In this document: piece by piece, positions 7,309 through 31,928 of the stretch
Layout: each line of letters begins with the position of its first letter
Numbering within the stretch: the first letter of the stretch is position 1
Assembly (NCBI GenBank): GCA_037043015.1
Contig: CM073322.1
Span: 19,417,601-19,481,600, forward strand
Origin: Bryum argenteum
Lineage: Eukaryota; Streptophyta; Bryopsida; Bryales; Bryaceae
DNA length: 64,000 nucleotides
Reading direction: 5' to 3'
The notes under the pieces: generated by a model
What the model saw: the letters and a program-made list of their open reading frames with translations, nothing else
The model's database searches: none
What the model was told of the DNA's origin: nothing
Program-made: the position numbers and the translations under genes

Positions 7309-10300
7309 TGGGTGTGGAGAGGAAAATTGTCGCTTGAGGATTGAAAGGGAGATCGGGAGGTGGTTGCAAGAAGATTTAGGGTGTTTTCAAGACATAGTTG
7401 CAAATGAAGTGTGTTTGATGCTTGATGAGGCTTACCTTGCTTCTAAGCCAAGGCCCAAGAGTGTTGTCCGGCCTCCTATTCCTCTTGGTAGGAATTGGAG
7501 GTTTTTGTCGAGCATTTAGTAGCAAGCGCGTTAGGGTGGGTTAAGAGAAAACCCTTCCCTGATTTGTTGAATACCTTGTTGAAGGAAGAGTGGTGGCCTG
7601 ATCAGGAGGAATTGAAGCCTGTTGAAATAGTGGAAGTCATGGAAGGCAATTTGAGGTCTCCTACACGTTACGCGAGGTGGAGACACGGTGGAGGTGAACA
7701 ACACTCCTGTGAGGGTGGAAACTATGATTGAGATTGGATGCTCACGTCGCGTGAAACCAAGGCGAATTGCGTTTGGTCCGTGAATCGCTGGGAGGGGGGG
7801 GTGCTGCTGGCCGGCGCAAATGAAGCCGGCCAGGGCCGATCGCCGGCTTACCGACGACGGCTGGGCCTTGCGGCGGTGATCGGGGCGGCCAGGGCCGATC
7901 GCCCAGCCGGCCCCCGACAGAGCAGACCGCCGGAGGAGCGGCAATGATCGGGCGGCGGGGCCGATCGCCCACCGCCCGACAAATAAGAGCTGCGCGGCTT
8001 CGCCTCGAGCCGGGCTAATGCGGCTGGCGAGAGAGTCGCGATCGCCAATTCGGCGAAGGAGGGGTGGTGGCCGACTTGGTCGCGGGAGGAGGTCTGCTTC
8101 AGTAGGTGAGTTTCCTCAACTCTCCAATTTTTTGCAATTCACACGTCCAAATGAATTGATGGATAATTCTCATGGTCATGGTTTGATTGATCAGGAGGAT
8201 CTCCAAGCGACTTCCCGTGAGTTGGATGGTTTGCTAGATTTGGTGAATAGCGGCGTGGGGGGGGGATTTAGATTCACAAGGGTTAGCTGATTTTGAGAAT
8301 GGCTTGAGGATGTGTAGTAGAAATGTTAGATTGAGGTCTGATAGGGTATTGATTGCACCATCTAGTGACTATGAACTTGGATTTCGCGGGAAGATTGTGA
8401 TTGTGCCCAGGAATGAGATACCATTGCTTCACATTGATGATGAATCTCCATGTTCTAGTTTGCTTGAATTTTGGGGTATTGTAATGCATGATAGTTTTGA
8501 TGTGATTCATGGGATTCAATTGCTCACTGTCAATTTCTATGGGCCTTGGGGGACGTTTGTGGTTCCGGAACCTGTGTGTGTGATTGTTGAGGATGGTCAA
8601 CCAAGTAGTGTGCCATTTCTTCAAATTTGGGGTAGGAATGTGCTTGATTCTTTGGATGAGGAAGGAAGTTCTAGCGGAGTTAGTACAAGTGATGATGAAT
8701 ATTTCCCACATGGTAGTGAAAGTGATGATGAGATGGGGGAGAAGTTAGACTCTATGGTATTGACCCCAACTACAAAGAAGTGGTTGGTAAGTGGGGGTGA
8801 GATGCGGAATGAAATTGGTTTGGGCTACAATGATTATGCTCAAATTTGTAACATGCCTGAGAATGAGAGGTTTAGTGAGTCTATGTGGAATTCTACATTG
8901 TCACAATTGCCTAGTATGGAGTTCATTGGGGAGCATGAGGGATTTAGCCAGGCCACATTGGATTGCAGTGAACCTCTTGATTTCTTCTCATTGTTTTGGC
9001 CTACTTCAACTTTGTCAAAGATTTGTATGCAAACTAATTTGTATGCAACAAGTTTGGATGAGAATGGGGTAAGCAAGGGTGGCTTGAGGTGGACTCCTTT
9101 GTTCATGTCCGAATTACGGGCGTGGTTTGGGGTGCTCATGGTGATGGCGTTGAAGAAGGTCCCACAAACACGGTTTCATTGGTCTAATGACCAAGAGGTA
9201 TGGAGAACCCCTGCAATTGTGAAGTGCATGAGTCGTACTCGGTTTGAGGCTATTTTGAGATGTGTGCATTTGGTTGATAATGACACAATAGTGCACGATA
9301 AAACCGACCCGGGCTATAGCAAAATGGCTAAAACTCAGTGGCTAGTAGATGAATTCAATGTCTTGTGTGGTCAAATGTGGGATGCAGAGAAGAACTTGAC
9401 AGTAGATGAAATGATGGTACCATGTACGGGTAAGTATTCGCCTATAAGGCAATACATGAAGGCTAAGCCTACCCAAAATGGGTATCAAAATTTGGTGCTT
9501 AGCAAATAGTGTGTCTAAGTATGTTCAACACATGGAAGTTTATTGTGGTGCCTCCACTTCGAGAGGATGACAATCATGCCACGGGGTTCAAAATTGTGAA
9601 CCAATTGATGCGGGGCCACGAAGGTAAGGGTCACATTGTGACATGTGACAATTTTTTTACTAGCCCTAAGTTGTTTTGGTGTTTGCTACAAAAAGGGATC
9701 TATGCAACTGGTACATGTAGATCTAATCGTCTAGGCTGGCCTAGTGCACTCACTATAAACCCAAGAACCGGAAGTAGGGGTCAGTTGTGGTTTAGAATGC
9801 ATGCTAGTGGTAGGATGGCTGCTATTTGTTGGTTTGATAACAAACCCGTGTGCTTGTTGTCTACAGCATTCTCTCCATTAGATGCTAATGGCCAAGTCTA
9901 CATTTCTAGATGGCATAATGGAGAGTTTGTTTCGGTGCCTTGTAGTCCCATACTAATCCACTACTAGGAAACCATGCGGGGAGTTGATGTCCAAGATCAA
10001 CTACGAGGATACTACACCGTGCAACGCAAAGACCACAAGAGGTGGCACCGTATCCTATTTCACATCTTAGATACTTCTTTAGTGAATTCCTACATTATTT
10101 ACAAATCACATATGGCTAATGCAGGTAAGAAGTGTTTAACTCATGTGAAGTACAATTTGCTTGTTGCTAATGCGTTGATGGCACAATATACAGTGTGTGA
10201 GCTTCCACGGACTACGGTTGTTGATGCAGTGGTTCCACGCCCAACCAAATTGCATTACACAGATAAGTTGGTTGCAGAGAAGCGGAAGAGGAGGACATGC

Positions 10301-15182: not shown

Positions 15183-15204
15183 TGTCACCAATCAGATAGA
15201 TAGA

Positions 15205-15240
15205 TAAGAACTCCAATCTTCAAATCAAAGATTGGCGTGA
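15205..15240 (-). other. 3'-terminal stem-loop of the LINE
   Basis: CCAATCTT (15,213-15,220) pairs with AAGATTGG (15,228-15,235) around a 7-base loop. It lies just inside the GATA tail. The same position in the 5,041 and 12,671 copies holds a different but still paired stem, so the structure appears conserved. Such 3' hairpins are recognised by the reverse transcriptase in several LINE groups; that role here is inferred. Confidence 0.7.
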
Positions 15241-15469
15241 ATACAGCGTCTATTCGTAATGTCTTTACCTCAATGGCCACAGGACAAAGAAGGTAATAGA
15301 ACATAACTACTCACCCCTTACGGGAATAGACACTAAACTATACGAAATTGAACTGAACTATAGTAACCGAGATAAAATTAAACTAAAGTAATAAAGACAG
15401 AGCTATTTGAGATGTGAGTGTTTTGGCAATGCAATAGGTGCTTTAAGTGGGATTTAGGTGGGTTTGTGG

Positions 15470-15560
15470 TCACCAAGCCGTGCAGTCCTAGGGTGGTTGA
15501 GGTGTGGGACGTTTGTAATTGTGCTGGTCCGAGTTCGAACCCCGACGGGCTCGTTTGAGC
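15470..15560 (+). other. tRNA-like (Pol III promoter-like) segment in the LINE 3' UTR
   Basis: On the plus strand, TAGGGTGGTTGAGG (near 15,489) resembles a tRNA A box. GTCCGAGTTCGAACCCCGAC (about 15,526-15,547) resembles a tRNA T arm with a B box. The spacing of ~40 bases is compatible with a tRNA-derived SINE head inserted antisense to the LINE. I could not define target-site duplications or a 3' tail, so it may also be a chance or ancestral part of the 3' UTR. Confidence 0.4.
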
Positions 15561-15793
15561 AGTACGCATGGCTTGGGGCTGTCTGTGAGTATATGGCAGG
15601 AAAATAATATCAACCACCCGGCCCCTACCCGAGAAGCTGAGACTGAAGCAGTGCGCTGCTAACAACAGTGGTTTGCACCACTACCCGCCCTTTTGTTTGT
15701 CATGGTGGCTCGAAATTGGTGAGGAGGGTTTGGTGGTTTTTTAGTTTTCGTTTATGTAGAAGAATTAATGCGGCGTGTCTTATAGCTATTGTG

Positions 15794-18700
15794 TTAATTG
15801 ATTTGAATGTGTCTTTGATTTGTTTTTTTGGTTAGTTTAAATGTGGTTTCTAATGAAGTCATGGAGGGCGTGTGGATTGTGCCTCTGGCGCCTGAGGTGA
15901 TGACTATGAGAGGGTTGACTTTCCACCCACGGGAAACTATTGAGTCTAGTAGTGGTTGATATTTGTTGAATTTATTTGTGATGGTTTCTTGCGGAAATCT
16001 ATCGTTACAATATGTGAATTCAACGTATTGGATGACAATGTTGTCGTTGGGATGTTGTGGGGGTGTGCCTTGGTGTGGGAGACCTATTACGCATAGTAAG
16101 TCAGGTCTAAATCGTGCATTGCAGTGACATCTACGTGTGTCGCAAGTGCAAGGAAGGAGCCAGCTTGGAACTGTGTTATTAGGAGGTGCGTTGAAGTGTT
16201 TTCCGGCATTTATGAGTGTGTAGTATCTAGATTTGGTGTTTGACAGGATGAGTTGTTTAATGGTTTTAACTGCCTGATTGTGTCTGGTAACTCTAAGTGC
16301 GTGTATATTTGGTTGGGGGCATTTGAGTAGGACGTGTAGCCACGTGTCTACGTCTGCGGAGTTGCAGATAGGGCATGTCTTTGATGGGAACCTTATATGT
16401 CCAAAGAATAGTTGTTTTCGTGCGTGTCCCATGTATTGTCCTGTTCGGAATTTTAGTATGCTAGTGATTTGAGAGTCTGTAATTGTTGGATTTTTCCAGA
16501 AGGCATTTGAAGATTTTGCATGTATATCCGGATTGGAGGTCCATTTGTTTATGTTAGGAAAGTCTTCTGCAAGTTTTTTAAGGTTGTTTTCACGGTCATA
16601 TTCGTCAAGGTATGTGTGGAGGTTTCTGACAGGACCTTTATCCGGTCTATGGTGTGGCCCCGGCCATATATCTTTTTGGTAATAGAAAGGGGTGATGTGT
16701 GCAAATTCGTGGTGTTTACGGGCGAATTTATAGTTTTTCTCGTTTCCTGCTTTCGCGAGTTTGTCTGCTTTTTCATTTCCAGAGATGTTAATGTGGGCTC
16801 GTACTTTGTGGAATGTGGTGGGTTGTGTGCGTATTTTTAGCATGTTGGTGATATCAATGAGGGTGTTTTGGTCAGGGTGGTTATTTTGTAGAGTAGGGTG
16901 TGTTAAATGTGTTTGTAGAACGTACAAACAGTTTATGCAATCAGTAAAAATATGTGCAGGTTCGTTTATGTATTTTGTTGTGAGGATTTTGAGTGTTTTG
17001 TATATGGCCATAAGTTCTGCTCGGAAGATTGTTTGGAGTCCCGGTAATCTTTTGGAGATTTGTATATCTGATTTGGTTGGGTTGTAAATTCCATAACCAG
17101 CTGTTTCAGGTAGCCAATGGCCAGAGGTTGTTTCTTGGGGGGGTATAAAAGAGCCGTCTGTGTAGTAGCTATATTGTGGTGGGAATTTGATGGGAAGATG
17201 TGTATTGTATTGTGGAAGTGGAGGTGTGTTTGAGGAATTAAATGTATAGATTGGAGGGTATAGTAGTTTTGTCCAGTTTTTGTTTTTGTTGACCGTAGTA
17301 TTTTCTGGGGTAGAGGGGATTTCTTGCAGCTGAAATTGTGTGATAGAGAGGTTTCTAAGTGTGGTTGTAAGGTTTTGTATATCTGCTGGGGTGGTGAGAT
17401 TATGTCGTTTATGGTGGATGCAGAGGATTTGGATCGTGTTTGGGTCGGTGCGGGGTTTAGAGTGATTAGCGGGTATTGTGGGTTCTTCGTATGTTATTGT
17501 GTTGACAAAATGTGCTAAAACATGCGTATCTGGGAACTCCGTGGAGTATGGGGTAGGATTGTGGAACCACTGTATGTCTGGTAGGACAACAATGGTTGTG
17601 GCATTTTGATTTTGTTGCGCGGCTAATCTGGCCCAGTGTATCGTTTGTTGAGCGGTTTCGTTGTTGTGGGGGTGGGCGTAACCAATGCCTTGCCATTTAT
17701 ATTGAAATGCAAGCCCACTGGAGCCAAATATTCTATCACGGGGGAATATAGAGTAATATTTTGTAATTTGAAGTGGGCAGGTTACTGGGGAAGAGAAGTA
17801 TGTGTGTGTAATTTGGAAAGTTGTGATAAGTGTGTCAATTATGGCAGTTGGGAGCGTGTGATGGTTTGTTGTTTTGGGATTACGTTTGGAGAGAGTGTGG
17901 TTGTAGCGTTTATATAAGAGAATTATTTCAGTTTCAAATGATTGGGTTGGGGGGGTTAGCCCGTGGTTGGTGTTAAGGCATGAGTGGTATTGCTTCCATA
18001 GCCATGTGAGTCTTGAGGTGGGGATGGTGAGGAGGAAATGACCGGTATTATCGAATAAATGTGATGTATGATTTAGGACTTGTATGGGAGGGGAATTTGT
18101 GAGGATATCTTTGTTTGGGTTGCAATCTTGGAGATGAATTTGTGTGAGAGGTATGTTTGTTGGAGGTGGGATGAAGCGGGTGTCTTTTAATTGCGGTGGT
18201 GTAAAAGAGGTGCTGATGATGTGTTTATATAGTTTGTGTTTTTGTTGTGTGTAGTAATCAAATAGAAGGTTAAGATTATGTCTTATGGCTGTCGGGTGGT
18301 TTGGGGGAAATAATTCTCTAGGAGAGAGCCAAGTGTGGTATGTGGGTTGGTTGTTTATTTCCCAATGACATATGTACATGTTAGAGGAGTGTCTTATTTT
18401 GTATTTGTCTGTTTTGGTAACTAGTTTGTGTGCAGAGATATGGTGTATGGGAAAGTTAATCGGGTCGTTGATGATTTGTTTGGGTGGCGGTATTGTTGGT
18501 GTCATTGGTGGGAGAGATGGGTGTGCTGGAGGTAAAGGGGTATGGGGAGATATTTCGTGATTATGTGTGATATATTTGTTGTATAGAAGATGGGATGGTG
18601 GGTGTGTGTTGCACGGATGTGAACATTCAAGAGTACAATTATTCTGGCAAAAGAGTTGTTGTGCTAGATTTAGGGCACTTCGTTCTAATTTTGTAGGGTT

Positions 18701-20691
18701 TTTATAATATGTTCTGAAGTCTATGGGTGACATGAGGGTGGTACCATTTGGAAGTGTGAGGTGCTTTATTTTGTATATTTTGTGCCGTAGCAATTTATGT
18801 AATAATTTGAGGGATAGTTTGGGATCGAGGTGAGGTAGAAGGTTTGATGCTTGGGACATCCATTGTGTTTCTAATTCAGTGGCTTCTAGTTGGAAGTTGT
18901 CTAGTGTGCTTTGTAGGTGGATTCCACCAGATTCTCTTAGTAAGAAGAGCGTTCTGGTGATTGGAGAGTGTATACAGTCGTGATATTTTATTCGGGGAAT
19001 GTCTTTGGATCCACCAAATTTGGCTAAAATGTGTTGGGTAAGGCCTTGATAGATTGGGCCAAGTTTGCTTTTATCATTTAGTGCATTTGTTAGTTGGTCT
19101 CCAATGCATCTAAGGTAAGCATTTTTAAGGGAAAATGCTTCAAGACCAAAGTCTTTGTGTGGTAATTGTGCTATAACATTTGCTGTACATTTTGGTAGAC
19201 CACATATCGTTTTCTGGATGCTGGATATTTTCTTATCTAGTTTTTTGATCATTGGCAGTGAGAAGGGTACTGCATAGAAGCTATATGCGACGCCTGCACG
19301 TATTACTGTATCCACCATGCTGATTTTTTGTTTCATTGTAGCGGGGCAGTTAACAAGTTTTTGGCATTGTTCAGTAAGTTTTTTGGTGGTTATGTGTGTT
19401 TGAAGTTTCCATTTTAGTGTTGGTACTACTTGGATGCCGAGATATGGGTAGGCTTCGTTTTGATGTAGTGTTGGTAATGACTCATTTTTATAGTTGATGT
19501 TTTGTGTTTGGAGGAGGTTTTTGAAGGCGGTAGGTGTGAGTTTGGATTTGTTTGGGCAACCTGTAACCGCGCATTTTTGTGTGCCAACTTCGAGTCCTGA
19601 CCAGTCACTGAATTTTTCAATTTTGTTCATTTGTGTTTGTAGTCCTTGGAGGTTAGCAGTAAGGGCGGCTAAATCGTCAGCGTATGCAGCGGAACTGATG
19701 GTTGTTTTTGATGTGCCAAATTTATATCCGTAATTTCCTCTTTGTAACCATCTAAGGAGAGGTTCTAAGAATATGATAAAGAGATATGGGCTTAGTGTGT
19801 CACCTTGGATGGTGCCTCTTTGGATTGGAATTGGTTTCGTTTGTCCAAAGTGTTCGCCGGTGTATATGGTGGTGGAGTGAGAGTAGATATTTCCAATTAG
19901 TGCAACAGCATCTTCTGGGTAGCCAAGGTCTTTCATTATTGCTAAAAGTCTTGCGTGGTCCAGGGAACCAAAGGCATTTTTGAAGTCGATGTACATAATG
20001 TAAATGTCTTGGTTTGTGAATCTGGCATCTTCAAGTGCAGCTGTGATAAGTTGGATTTGTCTTGATGTACTTCTTTCAGCGCGGAAGCCTTCTTGGGTGT
20101 CATGAAGTATTTGGTGATGTTCGCCATAGGCTGATAGAATAAATGTAAGGGTGCTGGTAAAAAGTTTATATATTGTGTTAGCTAAGGCAATGGGTCTGTG
20201 GTTCGGGAGAAGTGAGGGGTCGCCTTTTTTGTATAATAATATAGTAAGGCTTGTTTTCCATGATGCGGGTATTTGTTTTTGTTTATAGCAGTGGAAGAAG
20301 AAGAGGTATAGAAGTGTGTGAAATGATTCTGGCATATGTTTGAGGATAGAGTTGGGAATCTTATCTGGTCCGGGGGCTTTGTTTTGTGAAAGATTTTTTA
20401 GGCAGATGTCGTAAATTTCGCGATTGTAGTATGTATGTAAAGAGATTCCTGGGGTACCTCTCTTTTCAAGGGTAAAACCATCCAATTCATGCCATGGATA
20501 TTGGCGTACTGCACATGTACAGTTTTGAGAATGTTCCGGTTGATAGTAACATGTTGGAATGGTTGGGCGATTAGTGATGGATTGTTGTAAAAATATTTCC
20601 TGAGTTATATCTTCTGGGCTAGTAAGGATTTTGTTGTTGTGAGTGGTAATGCAGTTGAGTGGTGGAGTTTCTAGATTTTTGAAAACACGAT
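15794..20691 (-). CDS. ORF2 3' part: reverse transcriptase, RNase H, zinc finger, putative RLE
   Basis: This is the C-terminal half of the LINE polyprotein, which copies element RNA at a nicked target. Residues below are counted from 20,485. The reverse transcriptase has GFRAERST, DFKNAFGSLDH (~165), QGDTLSPYLF (~230) and the catalytic YADDL (~267). RNase H has YYTDGSF (~1,106), FRAELMAIY (~1,155), FTDCIN (~1,180) and GNEKADKLAKAG (~1,240). A zinc finger CPIC...H...C lies at ~1,372. After a Cys/His segment come RFRPDLL (~1,458), VEFTYCND (~1,487) and GWKVNPLIVITSGA (~1,520), in the order of a PD-(D/E)XK restriction-like endonuclease. The frame has no stop from the insertion junction at about 20,691 down to TAA at 15,794, so an upstream ATG is not needed: this is the downstream piece of a split ORF2. 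The second endonuclease is the least certain call. Confidence 0.88.
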
Positions 20692-23600
20692 TGTCGTGAG
20701 TTACCAGACCGAGAAGACCAAAAACAGCACAATTTTACTTATACAACCAAGCAAAATGGTTCGCCTTCCGGGTAACGTTCCACGGAGATTCTGTGAAGTG
20801 TGAAGACCAAATGAAATCCGGACCAACAACCTATGGACGCTACAACGACAGAAAACGTTCTAATCTACCGGATTAGGGAACTCGGGGAGGGGTTGGGGTC
20901 TGACTAGCTCCCAAACCCAAAACCCCAAGGAAACCAAACTTTGCGTCGATCCGGTGGTTTTCTAGATTGAACGGCCTCCCCCGGGGGAGGGGGACTTAGT
21001 ATCCTGTGGTGATTTAGTTTAACCTCCGTAAATCCTCGGAGGGTCTTTCCTATTTATTTGGAAGAGCGCGGAATGTCGCTCCCTACCGGTTGGTTAAGGT
21101 GTCCGGAGTTCCACCCTTAGTATCTCGACTACCCTTTCCTTCTCTCTCGGGGAGTTCCTTCCTTGCTACTCGCCACTATCCGGATTCTCACCCAAACAAG
21201 GTCACACAAAGAAGGCCCGGTTTCCTCCCTAACTGAGCCAACGAGGGGGTTGTTTACTCGTGACCCGGATCACAAGTGGGTGGTATCCCGCCACTTAATC
21301 CATTAGAGTTCCAATAACATAGAACCGGGTTCGTACCCTACTCCCGGGAGAGGCTTTCTCAACCGAACATCCCATTCGGGAGGTTGGCAATCAAAGCGTT
21401 TCTTGCTAACCCTAGTACCTCACCCAACCCGGTTAGTGTATCACCTTCCTAGGTGACGACTACTCCCGATATGCTCTAGTACTTCTCACACGGACCTCTC
21501 ACCGACTCACTCTCTCCTAGAGACCTCTCCCGGGTTCCGGGATTGCAACCACCGAATCTACGAGGGACTTCCCGTATCCACGACCCGGCTCGGACATCAA
21601 CTACGCACACACTATTACAAGATCACGACTTACACAATCACGAATTTTAGGTGCAAAGATCAACCTTTACTCACAGTGCGGAACACAGAGAAGACCCGAA
21701 GGACTCCGCAGAGTCTTGATAAAGAGAGGGTCCCGGTTTTCCGGAAACCCTATCAGATCCGGAATTCTCGGGCTTCCGAGATTCCCGGGTGAGTGGCCAA
21801 AAAGGCACCTACTAATCCTACCCATTCTAACCTAACTAACTACTGACTAGTGTCTTCTTCCGGCGGCGTGGGTCGGCTCGAGGGGTTTGACGGCGGCGTA
21901 TTCATCCCGAAGGGCCTCGCCAACTCGCGGGAGGAATCTCCCTCCCCGATCAACCGGGGTGGATGTAAAATCTCGGATTTTACTGCGTCCTCCGGCTCTT
22001 CCACCTGTCCCGGAGTGCCTTCAACTTCGATGGAGGGGGCACGGGGTGGACTTCCTCTTCTTCATGAGGAACCACGAGTTCCTCCAGCTGTACCTGAGGG
22101 CCCACGGGTTGGACCTCAACTTCCTCTTGAGGACCTCGGGCTCCTCCTGCCGCCCTTGTTCGCCCGGGATCTCCCACCTCGTTGACTTGGGCCTCCGGGT
22201 GAGGTATTACCTCTTCAACCTTGTTCGGGAGTCTTGCCCTTCTCCCGACATCGCCATCCGGGTGCTCATCCGGTTGTTGAGAGGGGTTCACCTCTCCTTC
22301 CACCACTGCTCCACCTCGGAGGGACCGGGTAATCCCGGGTTCTCCCGAGGTATCCGCTTCCCGAGGGGGAGTCGCGGCTCGTTCTCCCTCCCCGTTCCCG
22401 GAATGGCACCGCCGACCGGGATCCTTTGCTCCTTCGGCGGTCGGGGGCACTTCTTCTATTTCCATGGGCACCGCCCCTCCGTGGGCACCTCTGGGGTGCG
22501 ATTACCTCCTCTTCCGGAAGGGCTTCCCGAATCTCCACGTGGGGAGGGCCCCCAACGACCTTCCAAAGAGGTGCGGAACTCCTTGAGACATCGGGTTGAT
22601 GCCGTGGCGTGCCTCTGAGCGGCTCCGAGGATTGGGGTGATTCACCGATCCCAATCCGAGCATCATAGAAGGCCGCCTTCGTTTGGGCCTCTCGCATCCG
22701 GTTGCAAAGACCTTCAAGATGGAGTGCAAGACCGTCCGATCAATGTTCGCAACCTCCGGAGCGCGGCCTCCCCGCTCCTCCACAATCCTCCCGAGGGCTT
22801 CCACCTCCGGATGTGCCTCCGTGTCCGAGGGGTCCGGTCCACACCGGACTCCCACGGATGCCTTCTCCTTTGGCCGGGCCTTGACACTGACTCCACCTTC
22901 TCTCTTCTCGGCTTGGCGTTTCCCGCCGCATCTCCTCGGCCAACTCCGGGTACTGTTCCACGTTGGGGGTCCGAAAACCCGTCGAGTCGCGCCCGGGAGG
23001 TGAACAATTGTTCATTCTCCCGATCTACCTCTTCCATGGCCACCGGATGGGGTGGAGGATACCCTCGGCCGGGTATCCGGTAGTAGGGGCGGGGAGCACC
23101 GGGGTGGTGTTGCCCGTCCCGGGGTCACATGTCCTCGTGGGGGACTCGAGCCGCCACCGATCTTTGGAGTGGCCGGGCGGGGTCAATCCTCCGCTCCGTA
23201 ACTCTAGTCGGGGAGGTGTGGCCTTCTCCGGGTGTCCTCCTCCTCCGCAAGGAGCACCTCCTCTTCGTCTTGGGGCTCTCTCCCGGGATCGGCTCGGCTA
23301 TCGGGCGAGTCGGATCTTGCATTGGCGCAGGATCCGGACTTGGGGCACGCTCCTCCTCGACGGCCCTCGGCTGTGCCACCGGACTCGCTGACCTCTTCCT
23401 CTTCTTGGCCTTGCGCTTCAGGTTGGGCACTCTCCCTCCTGGGGGTCTCTGTCCGGGTGGAGGCACCTCTGCAATAGCCTCTGCCGCAGCCACCTCCTCG
23501 TTCGGGACCTCCTGTACCACCGGGGGTGGGATCCGGACGGGAGAACGTCTTCTCCCAAAGCCGGTCGTATCCTTCCTCCTCACCCCTCGGGATGGTCTTG

Positions 23601-25250
23601 CCTGTCGAGGTGGGGCTTCCTCTTCTTCCTCTTCCTCGTCATCCTCGCTCTGGCCCTCCTCCTCCGCGGATTGGTCTCCACCCGCCTCAGCTATCTCCTC
23701 AGCCCTTCGTTGCTGGGCTCTTGTCCTCCGGATGAGGGGGACGACCTCTTCTTCTTCCTCCTCTTCCTCCTCTGCATTTGGCATGAACAGGAAGGGCATG
23801 GTTTGAGAAGTCCGGGTAGGATTCACCCGGTTACTTCCTCCTTCCTGGGTGGCCACCCGGGGTGCTGTGCTGGGTCCGGCTTGGCTGGGTCCCACCGCTC
23901 GGGCCTGTCGAGTGGCTGGTTCCGGTGACCCCTCCAGGTCGGTAGCCTGGACTTGCTCCATCTCCTCCCCGGACTCGGAAGAGGTTGGCCCCTGCGGATC
24001 TCCGGATGGGAGGTCGTGTTTCTCGTGCCAATAAAATATCTCCCGGTCGGTGAGGATGCCGTGCCGTTGGTAGAGATGGAAGATGTAGGGGGCCAGTGGG
24101 CACCCCTTCTGATTCCCGATCTTCATCACCTCTCGCTGCACCACCTCGCTGATGATGTGGTGCCACCCGACCTGCATCCGCCCATCGTAATTTCCCAAGA
24201 TAGCCTTCATCAGCTTCACGGTGCAGGTGGTCGGCTTGTCCGGGCTGAGTATGGGGAGAAGAAACCGGAGGGGGCGCGTCACCCGGGGTCCTCAGATCCT
24301 CCGGTTTGAATCCGTCCTTCTCCGTGGGCCCCTGCGAAACCGATTCCTCAATCCGTTGTCGCCCTTCTTCTTGATGTAGCCGATTGGGGAGTCCGGAAAT
24401 TTGTAAGTCGCCCTCAATGGCGGGGTCCCCGATTGTCCGTCTTCCCCTCGTGTGCGTCCACGCGTACATCTCGGGAAGCGGTGGGTGATCGTTTCTCGAT
24501 GATGGTCTGTCCGCCAAGTCCCACGGCATCGTGATGTCCCCGCGCACCCCATCCGAAGGAGGTCATCCTCGCCTCCGCTTGTGCGGTGGAAGCTCGGTAC
24601 ACTGCGGCTTCACCGACTTGAGGGGATCGGCATCCCCGGTCGCCACGGACCACCTCCCTCCTCTTCTTCGGATCGCTCCCAGTATCATGTAGTCGCCGAA
24701 CTCTTCTCTCCCTGCTTTCCCGGACTGATTCCGGTAGAAACCCTACTTCCCGAAACCCTAATCTCTCCAAACTCTGCTTTTCCAACACTCTCGGATCGCT
24801 GAGCTCTCAAAATTGCTCTATCTCTCAAAACGCGCGGACTGGAATGGCTGAGAATGGAGGCGGCGGCTCCTAATAACAACAAACCGAACTCTCCTTCCGA
24901 GACATCATCACCCAGCCGAGACATACACCGAAGTACCCGGTCATCATTGAGCCGCCGGTGATTATGTCGGCGCCCATGAGTTTTCCCGGCCCTTTCTCCG
25001 GTCGACCGGCGGCTCGGGTCATCAACCCGAGGAGAACCGCCATCCGGGCATCTCAGGGTATCAGCCGGGTATCAACCCGGCTATCCAGTAAGCTCTAAAA
25101 TCCCATAAGGTTAGCCGGAAGAATCTTAACACAAAATTACTACCTACGAACCGGTTTAAACAGGCCGGTTTTTATTCCTATTTGCTAAATCAGCTATTTT
25201 ACTCCTAATTAATTGCTAAAAACAAAAATATTGGAGAACAGGGTTCGACA
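20692..25250 (-). mobile_element. 4.56-kb nested insertion, TG...CA ends, 5-bp duplication
   Basis: The insert starts TGTCGTGAG and ends GGTTCGACA, giving TGTCG...CGACA ends. It is flanked by ACGAT at 20,687-20,691 and 25,251-25,255. Those features are typical of LTR retrotransposons. By eye, however, I find no long terminal repeats: the first ~200 bases do not recur near the other end. The duplication could be read as 8 bp (ACGATTGT) with different ends, but those show no inverted repeat. The interior is GC-rich and encodes broken minus-strand frames. It may be a non-autonomous or degenerate LTR derivative. Confidence 0.7.
23125..24282 (-). CDS. Putative plant retroelement protein (PF20167/Transposase_32-like), 385-codon frame
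   Basis: The N-terminal ~95 residues (RPLRFLLPILSPDK... to ILTDREIFYWHEKHDL) resemble the 'putative plant transposon protein' domain found in non-autonomous plant LTR elements. The rest is low-complexity and charged: long Glu runs (~170 and ~215), Pro-rich segments and Lys/Arg-rich patches (KRKAKKRKR). Related coding appears upstream in other frames (GDITMPWDLADRP... near 24,520; MSRLGDDVSEG with an ATG at 24,924). A coiled-coil-like stretch (EEVDRENEQL) follows downstream near 23,035 in another frame. The open frame begins without an ATG. The gene therefore looks frameshifted, or spliced in a way I cannot resolve. Family assignment is by resemblance only. Confidence 0.45.
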   Translation of the reverse strand: MTRPLRFLLPILSPDKPTTCTVKLMKAILGNYDGRMQVGWHHIISEVVQREVMKIGNQKGCPLAPYIFHLYQRHGILTDREIFYWHEKHDLPSGDPQGPTSSESGEEMEQVQATDLEGSPEPATRQARAVGPSQAGPSTAPRVATQEGGSNRVNPTRTSQTMPFLFMPNAEEEEEEEEEVVPLIRRTRAQQRRAEEIAEAGGDQSAEEEGQSEDDEEEEEEEAPPRQARPSRGVRRKDTTGFGRRRSPVRIPPPVVQEVPNEEVAAAEAIAEVPPPGQRPPGGRVPNLKRKAKKRKRSASPVAQPRAVEEERAPSPDPAPMQDPTRPIAEPIPGESPKTKRRCSLRRRRTPGEGHTSPTRVTERRIDPARPLQRSVAARVPHEDM

Positions 25251-28200
25251 ACGATTGTTTATTTTCTTTGGGCTAATATTGTAAAGGTGTCTGTATTTGG
25301 TTATGGCCTTTTTGATGGATTGACGAGTGTATTTCGTGGTAATGGCACGTGCTTTTTTGTTTGCGGACTTAGCTAAATCGGCTAGTGTGTTTAGCCAGAC
25401 TTGCTTAGTATCATCTGTTTGTGGAGGTGGTGGTATGTTTGTGAGCGTATGTTGTTGTGTAACTTGTATTATTGGATGTGTTCTCCAATTTTCATTGTTG
25501 TTAGCAATGTAAATTGTTTTGCGGGTTAGATGGTAAGTAGAGAGGTGTTTTTTCCATTCTTTTTGTGATTTTCGTGGTAGGAAGCCACCTTGAAGGTTGG
25601 TGTTTGGGGTAAGGGTAGGAATGAGGGGGGCGGTACATGTGGTGAGTAATGTTTTTGTGATGTTGTTTATGAGGTGGTCTAATTGCGCACAAGCATTGGA
25701 CCATTCTGTGGAGGTGAGTTGATCATGTTGTAGAGTTGTTGAGAGGCTGTTGATGGAGAGTGCATTTTGTTCGAAAAATGTAGTGATGAATGTGTTGAAG
25801 TTAGCTTGTGGGATGGGGTTGAGAATTCGCGCGGGTTTTGCAGCGAATATTGGTGGAGATCGTGCTATAAGTAGTTGTTGGGGGATATGAAGTGTTACTG
25901 GAGAGTGATCTGAGTTTAGTTCTTGAGTGTGGTTGGTGGTAGATGTGAAAAGATGGTGATTCGGGGAGTTTATGTAGTAACCGTCAATAAGACTTGTTTC
26001 GGTATAGTTGTGTCCGCCTTGTCTGGAGAATGGGCTGTTTGTGGGAATATAGGTGAGATTGAGACTATCAGTGAATGCACGCCATTGGATGTCTTCTTCT
26101 TGTGGTGTTGTATTGGTGTGTGCATTTCGTTTACCAGTGAGGGCGACGTCTCTATTAAAATCGCCACAAAGGATTTGGATATGGTTTTGATGTGTTTGTA
26201 TGTGTGTAAAGATTGATTGTTGAATGAGAGGGATCAAACCTATGTCTGTTGTGTGAGATGGCATATATAAATTAATGAGTAACCATGGTGTGAGGGGTTT
26301 GTTTTCTATGTGAATAATTTGAAGGTAGGGTGAAATGTTTGCCGGGGTTGGAATTTCGGTAATGTTTCCCGGAGAGGCATAATTTTGATGTATGAGGGTG
26401 AGAAGGCCTCCTCTAGCGGGGGTGTATGGCATTCGTTGTTGCATGCATCGAGTTAGCGCATGTGTGTTATTGAAAATGAGTTTATATTGTGATAGCATGC
26501 GTTGAATGTATTTTGTGGATTTATTGGCGGTGAGTTTTGTTTCTTGAATAGCTATTATTGCAGGAAAGGTTTGTGTAAGATGGTGAAGATTTGGCAGGGC
26601 GGTGTTGAGTGAGGCCGCGTTCCAGGTAATGATTTGAGTAGTATATTGAGTGGTGATGTGTGGATGAGGTTGTATGGAGGGTGCGCGTGGTAGTGGCGGG
26701 GGGTGGGAATATTCAGGAAGTTTTTCAGTGCATCTTAGTGCTTCTATTAGTAGTGTTTCCGGGAGGTATGGAAAAGTGTCTTTTATTGTTTGTATGGTTG
26801 CGATGTTTGCATGTTCTAGGATGTGAGTATAAAGTTGTTTATGGATGGTTTGTGTGGGTTTGATAATGTTTTGTTGAGTATCTAGAAAGTGTATGTATGG
26901 GTGTGGAGTATTTAGGTGTCTTGATGGGATATTTGGTAGTCGAGAGAGTTTATTGAGGAGAGATGTTGTCCAGTGTGGAATAGGATTGGATGTTATATGT
27001 TGTTCGCACATGATAAGTTGCGGTCCGATAGTGGTAATGAGAGCATATAGTAGGTTAGGTGGGGGAAATTGAGGGTGGTCGTGTATGTATCGTGTGAGGC
27101 ATGGATATCTCTGTATACTGTTTTGGTGGTCTGAATGTGTGATTTGAATGGTGGACGAGAATATTGTTGCTAGATGTTTATACTCGGGGTGTAGTATTAT
27201 AGTACTTGGGATAAAATAAGTTTGGTTGTGTCTTCTATGTAAAGCGGGATGGGAGCGTAGGACATTTGGCATAGGGCCAGGATTTGATTCTATGTCTCCA
27301 CAACATAAGAGAAATAGGTAGTTTGGAACAAAATATCGGGTGAAAGTTATAATTTTTGGTTTGCGGTAGTGAAGTTTTGTGTAAATTATGAAGGTAGTGG
27401 TGACCGTGTTGAACAAGTTTGGAAGTGGACATACTAGTGGGGATATGCATCCTTGTGTGGATTTGTATGTGTAATAATGTGGCGTTTGTGTAAAAAGAGT
27501 TTGTGAGTAAGTATAGGAGCATGTAAATGTTAAGGTGGGTTGTGAGGATTGTTTATGCATTGAATTCCAAGGATGTTGTGGTATTTTATGTATGAGGGTG
27601 AAAGTTGTAAAAATGTTGTTGCGGTTCATGCCTATTGGAAGTTTGTGGGTTTTTGGGATTGTATGTTGCGTATCTCTTAAGAATGTGTCCAATGTTGAAG
27701 TGAGTTCCTTGTAATCTAATGAGCTTTTCCATGTGGTTTGTTTCAAATTAAGGTGTGTTGTTTGTAGTGGTGTGGTGATGTATAGAGATGCGATTTGTGT
27801 GCGTGCATTTATATATTGTTTGGTAGTGTAAAGTTGTGGTAGGGGAAAGTTGTGGAAGGTATAAGTGTGATGTTTTCTTTGTTTGTTGTGTGAAGAGTTT
27901 CGGATTTTGTTTTTAGGCCGGATGAGTACGTATTGGAAATATGGGTGAGTTGTGTTGTTGTAGGTTATATGTGTTGATATAAAATAAGTATGCATATGAG
28001 AAGAGTATGAAAGGTGGTGATAGAAGTTTGTTGGTGTATGTATATGTCGAATGAATAGACTAGGTGAATTTGGTGGGTATGAAAGGGAGGTTTGGAAGGG
28101 GGTTTTGAGTACTAAGAGTTTTGTAGGGAATATCGACAAGAGTATGTGTGTATGAATGTGAATTTTTGGACGGATGGTCTGCCGGTTTGGTAAAACCAGT

Positions 28201-28577
28201 GCGTAGCTTTGATGTGACGTATGTACTGTTTCTAGAAGGCATAGAAGTTGAATGAGGATTGATTTTGTGGTGTAGTATGTGTGGTAGAAAGATTTAGGTT
28301 TTTGTAGATTAGAGAAATTTGTGTTTGATGGGGACTGAGATGCTTGAGGAAGGCCATGCGTAGTTAAAGATAATGTGGTTTTTCCGTTAGATTTAAACAA
28401 TGTGGTACATACTAGTACTTTACTAATATAATAACATTCTATATTATAGTAGAAATAATACAAACATGTAAAAATTAAAAGTAAAGTAATATAAGGCACA
28501 ATACTATAAATAAAAGTAAAGAAATACAAGGCAAAATTTATAAATATGGAGCTATAGTGATATGGTGTACTAATCAT
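25209..28577 (-). CDS. ORF2 5' part: 2A-like leader and AP-type endonuclease
   Basis: This is the N-terminal part of the LINE polyprotein, starting at ATG 28,577. Residues ~8-60 are strongly hydrophobic and may be membrane-associated. A 2A-like motif ends NPGP at ~432-435. Residues ~645-895 form an endonuclease/exonuclease/phosphatase (AP-type) domain: TWNAASLN, QETKL, GDFNRD (~804), a LIDGYY segment and SDHSPV (~890). It would nick target DNA to prime reverse transcription. The region is very rich in Thr, His, Pro, Ile and Asn because the sense strand is G-poor. Its ATG overlaps the ORF1 stop by 8 bases. The last ~15 codons (to TAA at 25,209) come from the inserted element, so this is a truncated form of the original 2,739-aa ORF2. 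Confidence 0.88.
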   Translation of the reverse strand: MISTPYHYSSIFINFALYFFTFIYSIVPYITLLLIFTCLYYFYYNIECYYISKVLVCTTLFKSNGKTTLSLTTHGLPQASQSPSNTNFSNLQKPKSFYHTYYTTKSILIQLLCLLETVHTSHQSYALVLPNRQTIRPKIHIHTHILLSIFPTKLLVLKTPFQTSLSYPPNSPSLFIRHIHTPTNFYHHLSYSSHMHTYFISTHITYNNTTHPYFQYVLIRPKNKIRNSSHNKQRKHHTYTFHNFPLPQLYTTKQYINARTQIASLYITTPLQTTHLNLKQTTWKSSLDYKELTSTLDTFLRDTQHTIPKTHKLPIGMNRNNIFTTFTLIHKIPQHPWNSMHKQSSQPTLTFTCSYTYSQTLFTQTPHYYTYKSTQGCISPLVCPLPNLFNTVTTTFIIYTKLHYRKPKIITFTRYFVPNYLFLLCCGDIESNPGPMPNVLRSHPALHRRHNQTYFIPSTIILHPEYKHLATIFSSTIQITHSDHQNSIQRYPCLTRYIHDHPQFPPPNLLYALITTIGPQLIMCEQHITSNPIPHWTTSLLNKLSRLPNIPSRHLNTPHPYIHFLDTQQNIIKPTQTIHKQLYTHILEHANIATIQTIKDTFPYLPETLLIEALRCTEKLPEYSHPPPLPRAPSIQPHPHITTQYTTQIITWNAASLNTALPNLHHLTQTFPAIIAIQETKLTANKSTKYIQRMLSQYKLIFNNTHALTRCMQQRMPYTPARGGLLTLIHQNYASPGNITEIPTPANISPYLQIIHIENKPLTPWLLINLYMPSHTTDIGLIPLIQQSIFTHIQTHQNHIQILCGDFNRDVALTGKRNAHTNTTPQEEDIQWRAFTDSLNLTYIPTNSPFSRQGGHNYTETSLIDGYYINSPNHHLFTSTTNHTQELNSDHSPVTLHIPQQLLIARSPPIFAAKPARILNPIPQANFNTFITTFFEQNALSINSLSTTLQHDQLTSTEWSNACAQLDHLINNITKTLLTTCTAPLIPTLTPNTNLQGGFLPRKSQKEWKKHLSTYHLTRKTIYIANNNENWRTHPIIQVTQQHTLTNIPPPPQTDDTKQVWLNTLADLAKSANKKARAITTKYTRQSIKKAITKYRHLYNISPKKINNRCRTLFSNIFVFSN
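27273..27311 (-). other. 2A-like ribosome-skipping motif
   Basis: The encoded residues LLCCGDIESNPGP match the 2A consensus D(V/I)ExNPGP and are preceded by a hydrophobic run (NYLFLL) as in known 2A sequences. Skipping would occur between the Gly and the final Pro, and the next residue is Met. It would release a ~434-residue N-terminal product from the endonuclease-RT polyprotein. 2A-like sequences are known in some other non-LTR retrotransposons. Activity here is untested. Confidence 0.8.
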
Positions 28578-31500
28578 ATCTAGTAGTGGCGTCCGGTAGT
28601 GTGGGTGGTGCTAGTGGACCATCGGCGGGTCCATTGTTTAGTGCCGAGAAAATTCCACCCATTTGGTCACTGTAGGCTCGAGAGGCAGAGGCTAATAGCT
28701 GTAGCTGGTGGACTATGTGGTTGTGGTGGGAAGCAGCTTGGGCGGCAGAAGCGTCTAATTTTTGTGTTGTGAGGTTGGAGAGTTCGACGCCTACTGAGGA
28801 GATGTGAGTACAAAGCCGTTGTTCAACTGCTTGGAGGGTGGATTCGAGTTGGTGGAGAGACGGTGCTGGAGGAGTTTCATTCTTGTATGCGGTGATGGCT
28901 TCGGCGATGACTTCACGTGTCGGACGGTTGTCTTGATCTCTTGCTTTGGCGATTGGGTTGGTACCTGCAAGGCTTTTTGTGTGGGGTGCAAAATCGATGA
29001 GTTTCCCAAGGCATGGGACTCCCTTTCGGTTGCACCAATGCGTATAGACTGCAGCGTTGAGGCAGCGAACTGTGGCCACACCATCATGTCTTCCCATTGC
29101 ATCTCCTTCTGCACGGTTATATGTAACTCCAAGTACATTTTTTGGAGATAGCATTTTGTAAATAGCAGCAGTAATTTGATTTTGTGAGTACTCTACTGGC
29201 AGTCCTCTAATGATTATGGAGGTTGTAAGGGCTTCTGGCGTGTTAGGATTTGATAACCTATCAGAGGAGGAGGAAGAGACATGTAAGCGATGTCCGGAGA
29301 GGAGAAGAGGGGTGTTGAGAAGATACTGTTTTGTAGATTCTGACGCAATGGTGATCTCCGCTGATTCCAATTGTTTGGTGCGCTTAGTTACACCAATAAA
29401 TTCCAGGTTAGCACCAGCAAGGTAGCCTAAACGTGTTAGTTCTCCCAAAAGTTGGCGAGAGGTGAAATGAGAGAGATAGGGGCTTGTAAGTTCGAGGCGT
29501 CTATTGGCGGCCGTAGAAGGGAAGTCAAAGCCTTTTTCTACTTTTCCTATGGCATAGTTAGAATCCTGGAGTTGCATAGTAAAGATACGCGTACCTTTGA
29601 GTAGTGCAAGACCATCTATGTTGGGGTTGAGCAAATCTACCTTCAAAAAGCCTAACCAGTTTTTTGTGTGTGGATGAAGAATGGCACTGACTGGTTCTCT
29701 AAATCTGTTAGCAAGGGGGATGCCCATGGTTTCAAACCTAGCCATGGCAGCAGCTTGGACCTCAGATTTTTTCATGTTACTGTAGTTAGAATCAAATCTG
29801 ATTACAATTTGGTGAGTGTGTGCTAGACCAGTATGAGTATCTATTTCTATGCCAAAAGGGATTTGTGTAAGATGGTAGAATTGTCCTGGAATACCGTCTG
29901 GTCTAACTGTTGGAAATAGTTGTTGAGGTACATGAGGGAATGAGTGTCGATAGGCAAGATACTCTAGTACTTCTGATTGGGGCATTCCTAACTCTGATAA
30001 GTTGTTAGTGCTATATCTAGTGAACTCAAGGAGACCTTGTTCTTTGTTGAGGACCTCGTGCACAGAGTATGTGAGCCAAAGATGGTGTGTGAAGTCAGTG
30101 TAAGTGGGGGGGTTTACCAGAGAAATTGGTGTTGGAGCGTCAGTAGGTGGAGACTTATTTGGGAGGCGTTGGGTTGGGATGTCCAGCAAGGGTCGCTCTT
30201 GGATTGACGTGGCCGTTGTACCGCTCGACATGTTCCGCATGCGTGGTGGCGACGTTTGTTGCTGGCTTGGCGGTCGGTGGGGGGTGGCCAGGAGAGAGGC
30301 AGCGTGGGTGAGGGTCACCGGTACGCCATTTGCTGAGGAGGTCACGAGGCTCGGGTCTGCGAGCGTATGCGGGGGCGGTGTGTTGTACGAAGAGGGGGAT
30401 CCACCTTCACCTTGTGAGTCGTCGGTGTCACCAGCCGCGCGACGTCTCTCAGAGTGGGATTTTGAGGAGGCAGATCGATGCTTCCGTATCTCCATTGCTG
30501 GTGTGGCTGCGTCGCGATTGTTCGTGGCTGGTGCGTTGATCGTGCTGGTGGGAGTGGATTCGAGCGCCAGGGCGTTGAGCTTGATCGAGAGCTTCTTCTT
30601 CTTGGATCCGGAGGACCCTGCTTTGAGAAGGCGGCTAGAGAGTGAATGTTGAGAGTCGCTGGATGTGCTGACCTTACGCATGGTCGATTTAACTCGTGCC
30701 ATTCTTCCTGCAAGACAGGAGGTTACGTTATTGTGGCAGCATTGGTGGGAGGAAGAATGCAATAGTGCGTGAAGAGAGAAGAAAAATGTGTAGTACCTGA
30801 TGTGCAAAGGCGTGTGATTCACTGCAAAACAATACTGGACGTTAGTTGAAGGGAGGCGAAAAAATCTCAGCACTATATTCAAGAGACATTGTCGAATGCG
30901 ATACCTGAGCAGATGGTGCGGCGGTATGAGATTTGGAGGCAAAATAAGCTTGGTGTTTATATGGGTGTGCGAGACTTGCGTTAGTGCTGTGGTTGTCAAT
31001 GTTTCGGTGTGAGGTTGATGGGTGGTGGGTGGGTACAGGGGGAGGTTCTGACCGATTTGTGTCTGGCAGGAAGGAGTTAAGTGCGGCTGCATTATCTCGA
31101 ACGTGGGGTGATCTAGTATGGTGGACGCGGAGTGTGTTCTATTTTTGGTGAGATGCTGATTGAAGAGGTTTGAGGGTGTCGGGGCCAGAGAAATCAAGTA
31201 TGGGCGGCGCTTATGGAAGTACAGGGATGCTAAGGTAGGGCGAAGAGGTAGGTTTTGGTGGGAAATCGTGATAGGAGGTGAAGCAATAAATGACAAATAT
31301 GGTGGGTGTCGAAATTTATGAGGTATTTTGCGTGATTGGTTGCATCTTCGGAGTCGGGTGGAAGATATTGCATTTGCCAGCCAACGAAGTGGAGTTGCGC
31401 ATCTCGAGGTTTGGGGTCCTGTTCTTGTCGTTTGTAGGTGATGTTCGCGACGTGCGGAGATGTGGCGACAAGGTTCGTGAAGGATGGCAGAGTGGCGTGC

Positions 31501-31776
31501 AGATTCGTTTAGGGTTTGCGAAGGCGGAGAGCTGAGGTTGGTGGGGTGCTGCAGTGACGGGAGGGCCGGCGGTGCGAGTCGCCCTCGGTGAGAGTTCGTG
31601 AGGGCGTCTGTGATGAGCGATACCCATACCGGCGTCGCGACTCCGAGGGATGCCGCTGCTGCTAAGGTATGTGATGTTGTTGCGAGAATTTGCGGTGCAA
31701 GTATGTAAGGTTGAAAGGCGGCACTCGGTGTTTGCATTTCTTTTGCAATAGCAGTGATGGGTTTACGTTTCGGCAT
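28570..31776 (-). CDS. LINE ORF1 (RNA-binding-like), up to 1,068 aa
   Basis: ORF1 proteins of LINEs bind element RNA. The first ATG in this frame inside the element is at 31,776 (MPKRKPITAIAKEM). A second candidate is ATG 30,702 (MARVKSTMRK, 710 aa), which precedes a basic Ser/Lys-rich region and may be the real start, because the sequence between the two looks less protein-like. Residues ~854-925 from the first start (TSIIIRGLPVEYSQNQI ... GKLIDFAPH) resemble an RRM fold, although I see no canonical RNP1. The C-terminal ~80 residues (LESTLQAVEQRL ... LQLLASAS) look like a coiled coil. No CCHC knuckles are present. The frame ends at TAG 28,570, overlapping ORF2's ATG in ATGATTAG. Confidence 0.75.
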   Translation of the reverse strand: MPKRKPITAIAKEMQTPSAAFQPYILAPQILATTSHTLAAAASLGVATPVWVSLITDALTNSHRGRLAPPALPSLQHPTNLSSPPSQTLNESARHSAILHEPCRHISARREHHLQTTRTGPQTSRCATPLRWLANAISSTRLRRCNQSRKIPHKFRHPPYLSFIASPPITISHQNLPLRPTLASLYFHKRRPYLISLAPTPSNLFNQHLTKNRTHSASTILDHPTFEIMQPHLTPSCQTQIGQNLPLYPPTTHQPHTETLTTTALTQVSHTHINTKLILPPNLIPPHHLLRYRIRQCLLNIVLRFFRLPSTNVQYCFAVNHTPLHIRYYTFFFSLHALLHSSSHQCCHNNVTSCLAGRMARVKSTMRKVSTSSDSQHSLSSRLLKAGSSGSKKKKLSIKLNALALESTPTSTINAPATNNRDAATPAMEIRKHRSASSKSHSERRRAAGDTDDSQGEGGSPSSYNTPPPHTLADPSLVTSSANGVPVTLTHAASLLATPHRPPSQQQTSPPRMRNMSSGTTATSIQERPLLDIPTQRLPNKSPPTDAPTPISLVNPPTYTDFTHHLWLTYSVHEVLNKEQGLLEFTRYSTNNLSELGMPQSEVLEYLAYRHSFPHVPQQLFPTVRPDGIPGQFYHLTQIPFGIEIDTHTGLAHTHQIVIRFDSNYSNMKKSEVQAAAMARFETMGIPLANRFREPVSAILHPHTKNWLGFLKVDLLNPNIDGLALLKGTRIFTMQLQDSNYAIGKVEKGFDFPSTAANRRLELTSPYLSHFTSRQLLGELTRLGYLAGANLEFIGVTKRTKQLESAEITIASESTKQYLLNTPLLLSGHRLHVSSSSSDRLSNPNTPEALTTSIIIRGLPVEYSQNQITAAIYKMLSPKNVLGVTYNRAEGDAMGRHDGVATVRCLNAAVYTHWCNRKGVPCLGKLIDFAPHTKSLAGTNPIAKARDQDNRPTREVIAEAITAYKNETPPAPSLHQLESTLQAVEQRLCTHISSVGVELSNLTTQKLDASAAQAASHHNHIVHQLQLLASASRAYSDQMGGIFSALNNGPADGPLAPPTLPDATTRYD

Positions 31777-31928
31777 GTCACCACCATCAGTATCTTGGGC
31801 TGTGAGGGTGCGCGGGGAGCAAGGTGGGGTACATAGGCGCAACTTCAAGATGTGCGGATTGCATTGGTGTTCAAATCGACAGGGAGCATTTTTTAGTGCA
31901 GAAGAGCTTAGTTCGATGTCACCAATCA

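Follow-up and report, generated by a model that had tools for sequence, protein, structure and literature searches.

We report that the second open reading frame (ORF2) of a dual-endonuclease LINE, found on the minus strand of the 64,000-nucleotide stretch of DNA analysed here (the window), very likely contains a working 2A (StopGo) recoding site at which ribosomes would skip. Skipping is taken as very likely because both the class of the residues upstream of the site and the H and Q variants of its relatives match StopGo sequences reported as active, the E14Q form partly so. By this route the LINE would give three products from two frames.

The 2A site and the architecture of the element

The site and the other features of the LINE are as follows:

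27311-27273, minus: 2A/StopGo site LLCCG-DIESNPG^P, LLCCGDIESNPGP, 13 residues of the translated minus frame
27296-27273, minus: 2A core DIESNPGP, matching the core (D/G/C/N)(V/I)ExNPGP
15195..31916, minus: whole LINE, about 12.2 kb, enlarged by a 4.56-kb nested insertion; ends set by repeats shared within its own genome
31917-31928 and 15183-15194: 12-bp target-site duplication TGATTGGTGACA flanking the LINE
28570..31776, minus: ORF1; frame open 31932-28570, start codon putative
28570..28577, minus: 8-nt overlap ATGATTAG; ORF2 ATG 28577-28575, ORF1 stop TAG 28572-28570
27276..28577, minus: ORF2 leader, 434 residues ending in NPG; open, weakly constrained
28497..28553, minus: hydrophobic segment at the leader N-terminus, leader residues 9-27
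26631..27275, minus: conserved helical domain from the 2A Pro (PMPNVLRSHP...); AF2 mean pLDDT 77.3
26109..26630, minus: APE-type endonuclease, PF03372, 25.6 bits against a cut-off of 24.5; QETKL, GDFN and SDH present
20695..25250, strand not given: 4.56-kb nested insertion splitting ORF2
25251-25258 and 20687-20694: 8-bp duplication ACAATCGT of the nested insertion
19430..20221, minus: reverse transcriptase (RT), PF00078, with YADD
17570..17962, minus: PCIF1_WW domain (PF12237), resembling PCIF1, between RT and RNase H
16745..17173, minus: RNase H, PF00075, E 8e-14
15797..16549, minus: C-terminal zinc-knuckle-like motif and R2-like restriction-like endonuclease (RLE), the latter recognized by fold

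The claim of an earlier note, made from the letters of this DNA, that ORF2 carries the core D(V/I)ExNPGP directly followed by Met was borne out, the Met codon occupying 27272-27270 (minus). The ORF2 frame around the site is open from 28610 to 25209 (minus), far beyond chance length as judged by stop counts against shuffles, and the plus strand over 27273-27311 translates to RARI*FYVSTT*E.

The element combines APE, RLE and RNase H, as is characteristic of the Dualen group, and its description in the earlier note as a dual-endonuclease LINE stands, with the APE identified through Pfam and the R2-like RLE through its fold. R2 RTs outscore L1 RTs in a profile search, which is not a tree; the Dualen RT branches between RLE and APE elements. 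A cysteine protease is said to have been part of the element in the original description of Dualen, and no Pfam match to one was recovered in ORF1 or ORF2. Neither Pfam nor NCBIfam gave a match for ORF1, and the helical domain after the 2A had no PDB fold match at E<=0.001 and no NCBIfam match. PCIF1 is an m6Am methyltransferase; in the PCIF1-like domain no clear NPPF motif was seen by eye. PCIF1_WW also occurs in the metagenome relatives P0004, P0005, P0009, P0011, P0013 and P0017, among others.

The 3' end of the LINE is common to many genome copies and the 5' end to one other copy; the tail at 15195-15230 (minus), which adjoins the target duplication, is a short TATC-repeat-like stretch and not poly(A). 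An empty site for the nested insertion was seen in two other LINE copies. Because this insertion interrupts ORF2, the window copy cannot make the full enzyme. The insertion is G+C-rich (64% GC at 22001-24000), with no clear terminal inverted repeat by eye in 20695-25250.

Elsewhere in the window there are two DDE_Tnp_1_7 transposase genes, which we take to be piggyBac-type, at 8247-9967 (+), in two frames, and at 60837-62297 (+), in a single 486-residue frame covering nearly the whole model. Outside the window, COX1 exons lie at C4:5371557-5379459 on a large contig that also carries LINEs; they are pieces between intron-like gaps, split by four apparent introns, with one piece in an 882-residue open frame, and their best PDB match is 7jro, presumably the mung bean structure. 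These exons suggest that the host is a land plant, and the positions of their introns make a moss probable.

Conservation of the 2A core across the genome

The abundance of the 2A pattern in the genome is not a product of chance. The degenerate codon pattern of D(V/I)ExNPGP, GAYRTHGARNNNAAYCCNGGNCCN, occurs at 167 sites (89 forward and 78 reverse) in 258.8 Mb, against an expectation of about 0.4 estimated from equal base frequencies, and the reversed control pattern gave 0+0 sites in the same genome. The LINE domain that follows the window 2A was present in all 30 loci inspected (the first 30 among 100 of the 167 sites listed), although L038 has it solely in a second copy some 750 nt further along, which follows a degenerate 2A of its own.

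A motif-free survey, for which the genome was searched with only the 181 residues after the site, yielded 280 candidates and 150 scored matches; 137 of the latter start within 3 residues of the site, and the other 13, which begin later, were left out. The core is intact at 111 of these 137 sites by the expanded definition and at 109 by the strict D(V/I)ExNPGP, and in the part of the genome with a complete list of pattern sites (contigs C1-C5 up to 18.52 Mb), 67 of 85 survey sites have the exact core. Among the 26 altered sites, 19 have one codon changed, 4 have two changes and 3 are unreadable as 2A; the single-codon losses include NPGL, NPSP, NPRP, NPCP, NLGP and E to K or Q. Core variants with E to Q and D to N are present in the genome.

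Open frames of at least 1,400 residues account for 21 matches, of which 20 cover the site (three of them within one shared 2,489-residue frame) and 18 are intact, the altered ones being DIKSNPGP at C4:7242392 and DIEPNTGP at C5:2174294. An open frame at the match is no proof of an in-frame leader, as is seen in L051 (C3:14418780), which is frameshifted upstream. In a separate DNA-based set of 40 matches, two of which do not cover the site, the 2A is intact in 32 of 38, these being partly the same copies as in the protein survey. Loci L009-L038 were chosen by the 2A pattern; L013, L016, L017, L019 and L034 are also DNA-based matches and were counted as such, and the other pattern-chosen loci were left out of the DNA-based intact count and of the core pN/pS. 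The earlier note had proposed that a genuine site would keep NPGP across genomic copies and that random loss of NPGP in otherwise intact copies would speak against it: the former is what these surveys found, and in the frames of at least 1,400 residues the latter was not seen.

Selective constraint sets in at the 2A site

In the 21 copies of the DNA-based set that are less than 95% alike, the eight core codons show a pS of 0.65 and a pN of 0.031 (ratio 0.047), whereas pN/pS in the same copies is 0.71 at codons -38 to -19 and 0.16 at codons 1-20 after the core. Of all windows along the 98-codon stretch, those with the lowest pN fall on the core and on the residues directly after it, and at least three codons are used at each of the eight core positions (35 representatives, pattern-chosen loci included). 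The 2A is conserved at the level of the peptide and not of the codon; purifying selection has kept it in diverged copies, and it is conserved in metagenome relatives too.

Constraint sets in at the 2A. Over the 41 of 64 copy pairs that were free of saturation, the median w is 0.52 in the leader (range 0.33-1.17) versus 0.13 after the 2A (range 0.08-1.72), and the leader value is the higher in 40 of the 41; with the pattern-chosen loci removed, 16 pairs are left and the leader is higher in 15. All copies in these pairs have an intact 2A and were picked for long open leaders, which biases openness and not obviously the contrast in w. The pair L017-L023, with 300 leader codons and no gaps, gives 0.66 in the leader versus 0.08 after the 2A. 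The pair L002-L003 is reversed (1.72 downstream, 0.75 in the leader), and in L009-L077 the downstream part is not constrained (0.75, versus 0.84 in the leader). The closest copies of the window element, L002-L007, likewise show little contrast, their post-2A part being not clearly more constrained than the leader: relative to the window, L003 has 10 synonymous differences and 21 changed residues in the leader and 13 and 29 after the 2A, and L005 has 27 and 46 in the leader and 22 and 36 after it. We read the low-contrast copies L002-L007 and the pair L002-L003 as decaying copies.

The leader and the start of ORF2

Upstream of the core, the leader frame in the window runs for 438 codons without a stop; shuffling its bases gives about 22 stops, and 20 and 15 occur in the other two frames. 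The copies in this openness analysis, too, were selected for an intact 2A and long open leaders, and they include pattern-chosen loci. From this openness and the contrast in w, the leader therefore appears to be translated but weakly constrained. Counted from the ATG at 28577 through the Gly of NPG, it has 434 residues, in agreement with the N-terminal product of about that size given in the earlier note; the corresponding leaders of the L034 and L026 families have 232 and 692 residues. The note's further attribution of membrane-like segments holds for the hydrophobic N-terminus, which is present in all three own-genome families tested, pattern-chosen loci among them (shuffle p 0.008, 0.016, 0.010); a well-conserved membrane protein is not supported by the median w. 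Among metagenome leaders, whose annotated starts may be wrong, a hydrophobic start reached p<0.05 in 5 of 17 and was not significant in 12. The leader is most likely a fast-evolving, weakly constrained, largely disposable and membrane-leaning segment.

In three of the four families with a readable ORF1 end, the ORF2 ATG precedes the ORF1 stop by 5 nt, the overlap reading ATGATTAG in the window and in L034 and ATGAATAA in L026. In the fourth, L017, the ORF2 Met follows the ORF1 stop by 41 nt and there is no overlap.

Relatives in the protein database

Alignments of 36 related proteins cover the site in 25 cases and fall short of it in 11; NPGP is present in 24 of the 25, the lone exception (P0054) having NPDP. 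Position 14 (p14) of the 24 is E in 16 (DIE), H in three (DIH) and Q in five (DIQ); P0061 and P0064, found later, also have NPGP in the DIH form. The motif was absent from 78 of 80 other proteins among the 120 of 312 matches listed, many of which may start downstream. A named green-algal protein, P0097 of Haematococcus lacustris, carries the 2A AWLLLACGDVEANPGP before a Josephin match, which is weak and below cut-off, an APE and an RT. In the five relatives scanned, Josephin was above cut-off in P0090 and P0099, weak in P0082 and P0097 and absent from P0077. A clean swap of the protease for the 2A was considered and is not supported, because of P0097, which has both the 2A and the weak Josephin match. 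The related metagenome RT protein P0017 also carries PF00145 and PF00628, which we take to be a C-5 DNA methylase and a PHD finger.

The residues before the window 2A are L-rich, with CG before the D at p12 and with S at p15, which suggests, by eye against the class description in the excerpted text of PMC12846837, that they fit a StopGo class assayed as active. In that text the L-rich motifs 2 and 6 end in (A/S/C)G before the D and have S at p15, and motif 6 was assayed and found active in rabbit reticulocyte lysate. In assays reported or quoted there, H at p14 retained >95% activity in rabbit reticulocyte lysate and E14Q 26-56% (PMC12846837, as excerpted).

These comparisons bear on two explanations that dispense with skipping. 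The Met after NPGP could be the true start of ORF2, used by internal or leaky initiation, with the 2A-like peptide a by-product upstream of an old start. An ATG does follow NPGP in 35 of 35 own-genome representatives, a set partly chosen by the 2A pattern, and a metagenome gene caller placed the start of P0029 at that Met. However, protein-level selection on the eight residues that precede the Met is stronger than on codons further upstream, the leader frame stays open much longer than chance would allow, and distant relatives that keep NPGP have L, P, I, K, V or N in place of the Met, as L021 has Ile. We consider such a start very improbable and, given these relatives, reject it as the main mechanism. 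Equally hard to credit is that the octapeptide owes its conservation to a structural role, or to protease cleavage, at the boundary of the enzyme. It does sit where protein constraint begins, but the changes seen in relatives obey the StopGo rules, namely V or I at p13, a variable p15, E to H or Q and D to N (PMC12846837, in excerpt), and no cysteine protease was detected here by Pfam, though relatives carry Josephin-type ones. Each of the two explanations fits worse than ribosome skipping.

ORF2s with two 2A sites

Some copies have more than one 2A. In L076, a single open frame of at least 1,200 codons holds two intact 2As, spaced by 512 residues and preceded by a relic, DIETNLGP, and L032 and L074 have two per frame, 288 and 242 residues apart; in L075 and L077, stop codons separate the two. 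In L076 and L032 a copy of the same domain follows each 2A, the first copy ending in fragments and repeats, and it looks as if the leader captured an in-frame piece of another element. In L074 the resemblance to the post-2A domain is confined to the first residues that follow the first 2A. The metagenome relatives P0034 and P0041 also have two 2As each, 159 and 140 residues apart.

Proposed mechanism

We propose that ribosomes would finish ORF1 and then, in most families, probably restart at the overlapping ORF2 ATG. The leader, with its hydrophobic start and weakly constrained body, would be made first, and the nascent chain would be released at ...CGDIESNPG without a stop codon. Translation would resume at the Pro to give a separate enzyme chain comprising the helical domain, APE, RT, the PCIF1-like domain, RNase H and RLE, of about 2,305 residues by coordinate arithmetic with the insertion discounted. 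The 2A would thereby give the enzyme a fixed N-terminus regardless of the upstream sequence, and would detach it from a leader with a possible pull towards membranes. Because each 2A would cut the upstream part off the enzyme, the leader could vary or capture pieces, hence the ORF2s with two 2As.

Counted against the 2A reading are the 26 of 137 altered sites, the low contrast in L002-L007, the start of L017 and the 12 of 17 metagenome leaders without a significant hydrophobic start. Against it also counts a report that 2A was inhibited in certain artificial polyproteins by signal sequences at the N-terminus (PMC2978324, in excerpt). A variant of the 2A reading, with odds that overlap its own, is that the site skips only part of the time by design and that the remaining fused protein works as a membrane-bound form, an idea put forward for the sea-urchin NLR signal-2A proteins (PMC4981915, in excerpt). 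The hydrophobic leader N-termini in three own-genome families favor this variant, but the leader body is weakly constrained and ranges from 232 to 692 residues, and because of this variability a conserved function of the leader-enzyme fusion is doubtful; we regard deliberately partial skipping as unlikely. Turning back to skipping that separates leader and enzyme, we would give about even chances to the broader proposal that in plant and green-algal dual-endonuclease LINEs the 2A is an N-terminal insulator behind a leader that is started by reinitiation and freely grows, shrinks and captures pieces.

Relationship to known systems and implications

2As are best known from animal viruses and from animal or trypanosome retrotransposons. 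Heras 2006 reportedly described a functional 2A in the trypanosome L1Tc non-LTR retrotransposons, and Odon 2013, by its title, is said to concern a virus-like 2A that recodes the translation of APE-type LINEs. Rao 2025 (Cell Rep) is reportedly, again by title, a systematic study of eukaryotic and viral 2As, and may already list elements such as those described here. The LINE shares with L1Tc a functional-type 2A in frame with non-LTR retrotransposon proteins, but belongs to another host group and has its 2A deep in ORF2, where the fast-evolving leader gives way to the dual-endonuclease enzyme. With the Odon 2013 elements it has in common the recoding of LINE translation by a virus-like 2A; unlike these, as far as the title tells, it combines APE with RLE, its host is a probable plant and some of its ORF2s have two 2As. 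In the literature searched, the scope of which excluded Rao 2025 and Odon 2013, we found neither a plant or green-algal dual-endonuclease LINE with a 2A deep in ORF2 nor two 2As in one ORF2.

In sea-urchin NLR proteins with 2A-like signals, too, the released product carries both a targeting-like segment at its N-terminus and a 2A, but in those proteins the short 2A peptide is itself the signal, whereas here a leader of 232-692 residues lies between (PMC4981915, as excerpted). Dualen/RandI elements unite APE, RLE, RT and RNase H in one element, as does the present LINE, which differs in having a 2A and in that a cysteine protease was not detected (PMC4640811, in excerpt). As in the coupled stop-start of SART1, the ORF2 start overlaps the ORF1 stop; the junction is UAAUG in SART1 versus an 8-nt ATG...TAG/TAA overlap here, where the coupling is putative (PMC5972666, in excerpt).

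A 2026 study of nearly 10,000 viral StopGo sequences, in its excerpted text, gave no evidence of natural use by plant viruses (PMC12846837). The 167 exact patterns, associated with a single kind of LINE in all 30 loci inspected, provide a natural plant 2A set for assay, including the E-to-Q and D-to-N variants of the genome and the E-to-H and E-to-Q variants of the metagenome relatives. They also suggest, in a form open to test, why a retrotransposon would carry a 2A, namely to keep a constant enzyme N-terminus behind a weakly constrained leader. The insulator reading, if true, would mean that StopGo has been in natural use in land plants since ancient times and in many copies.
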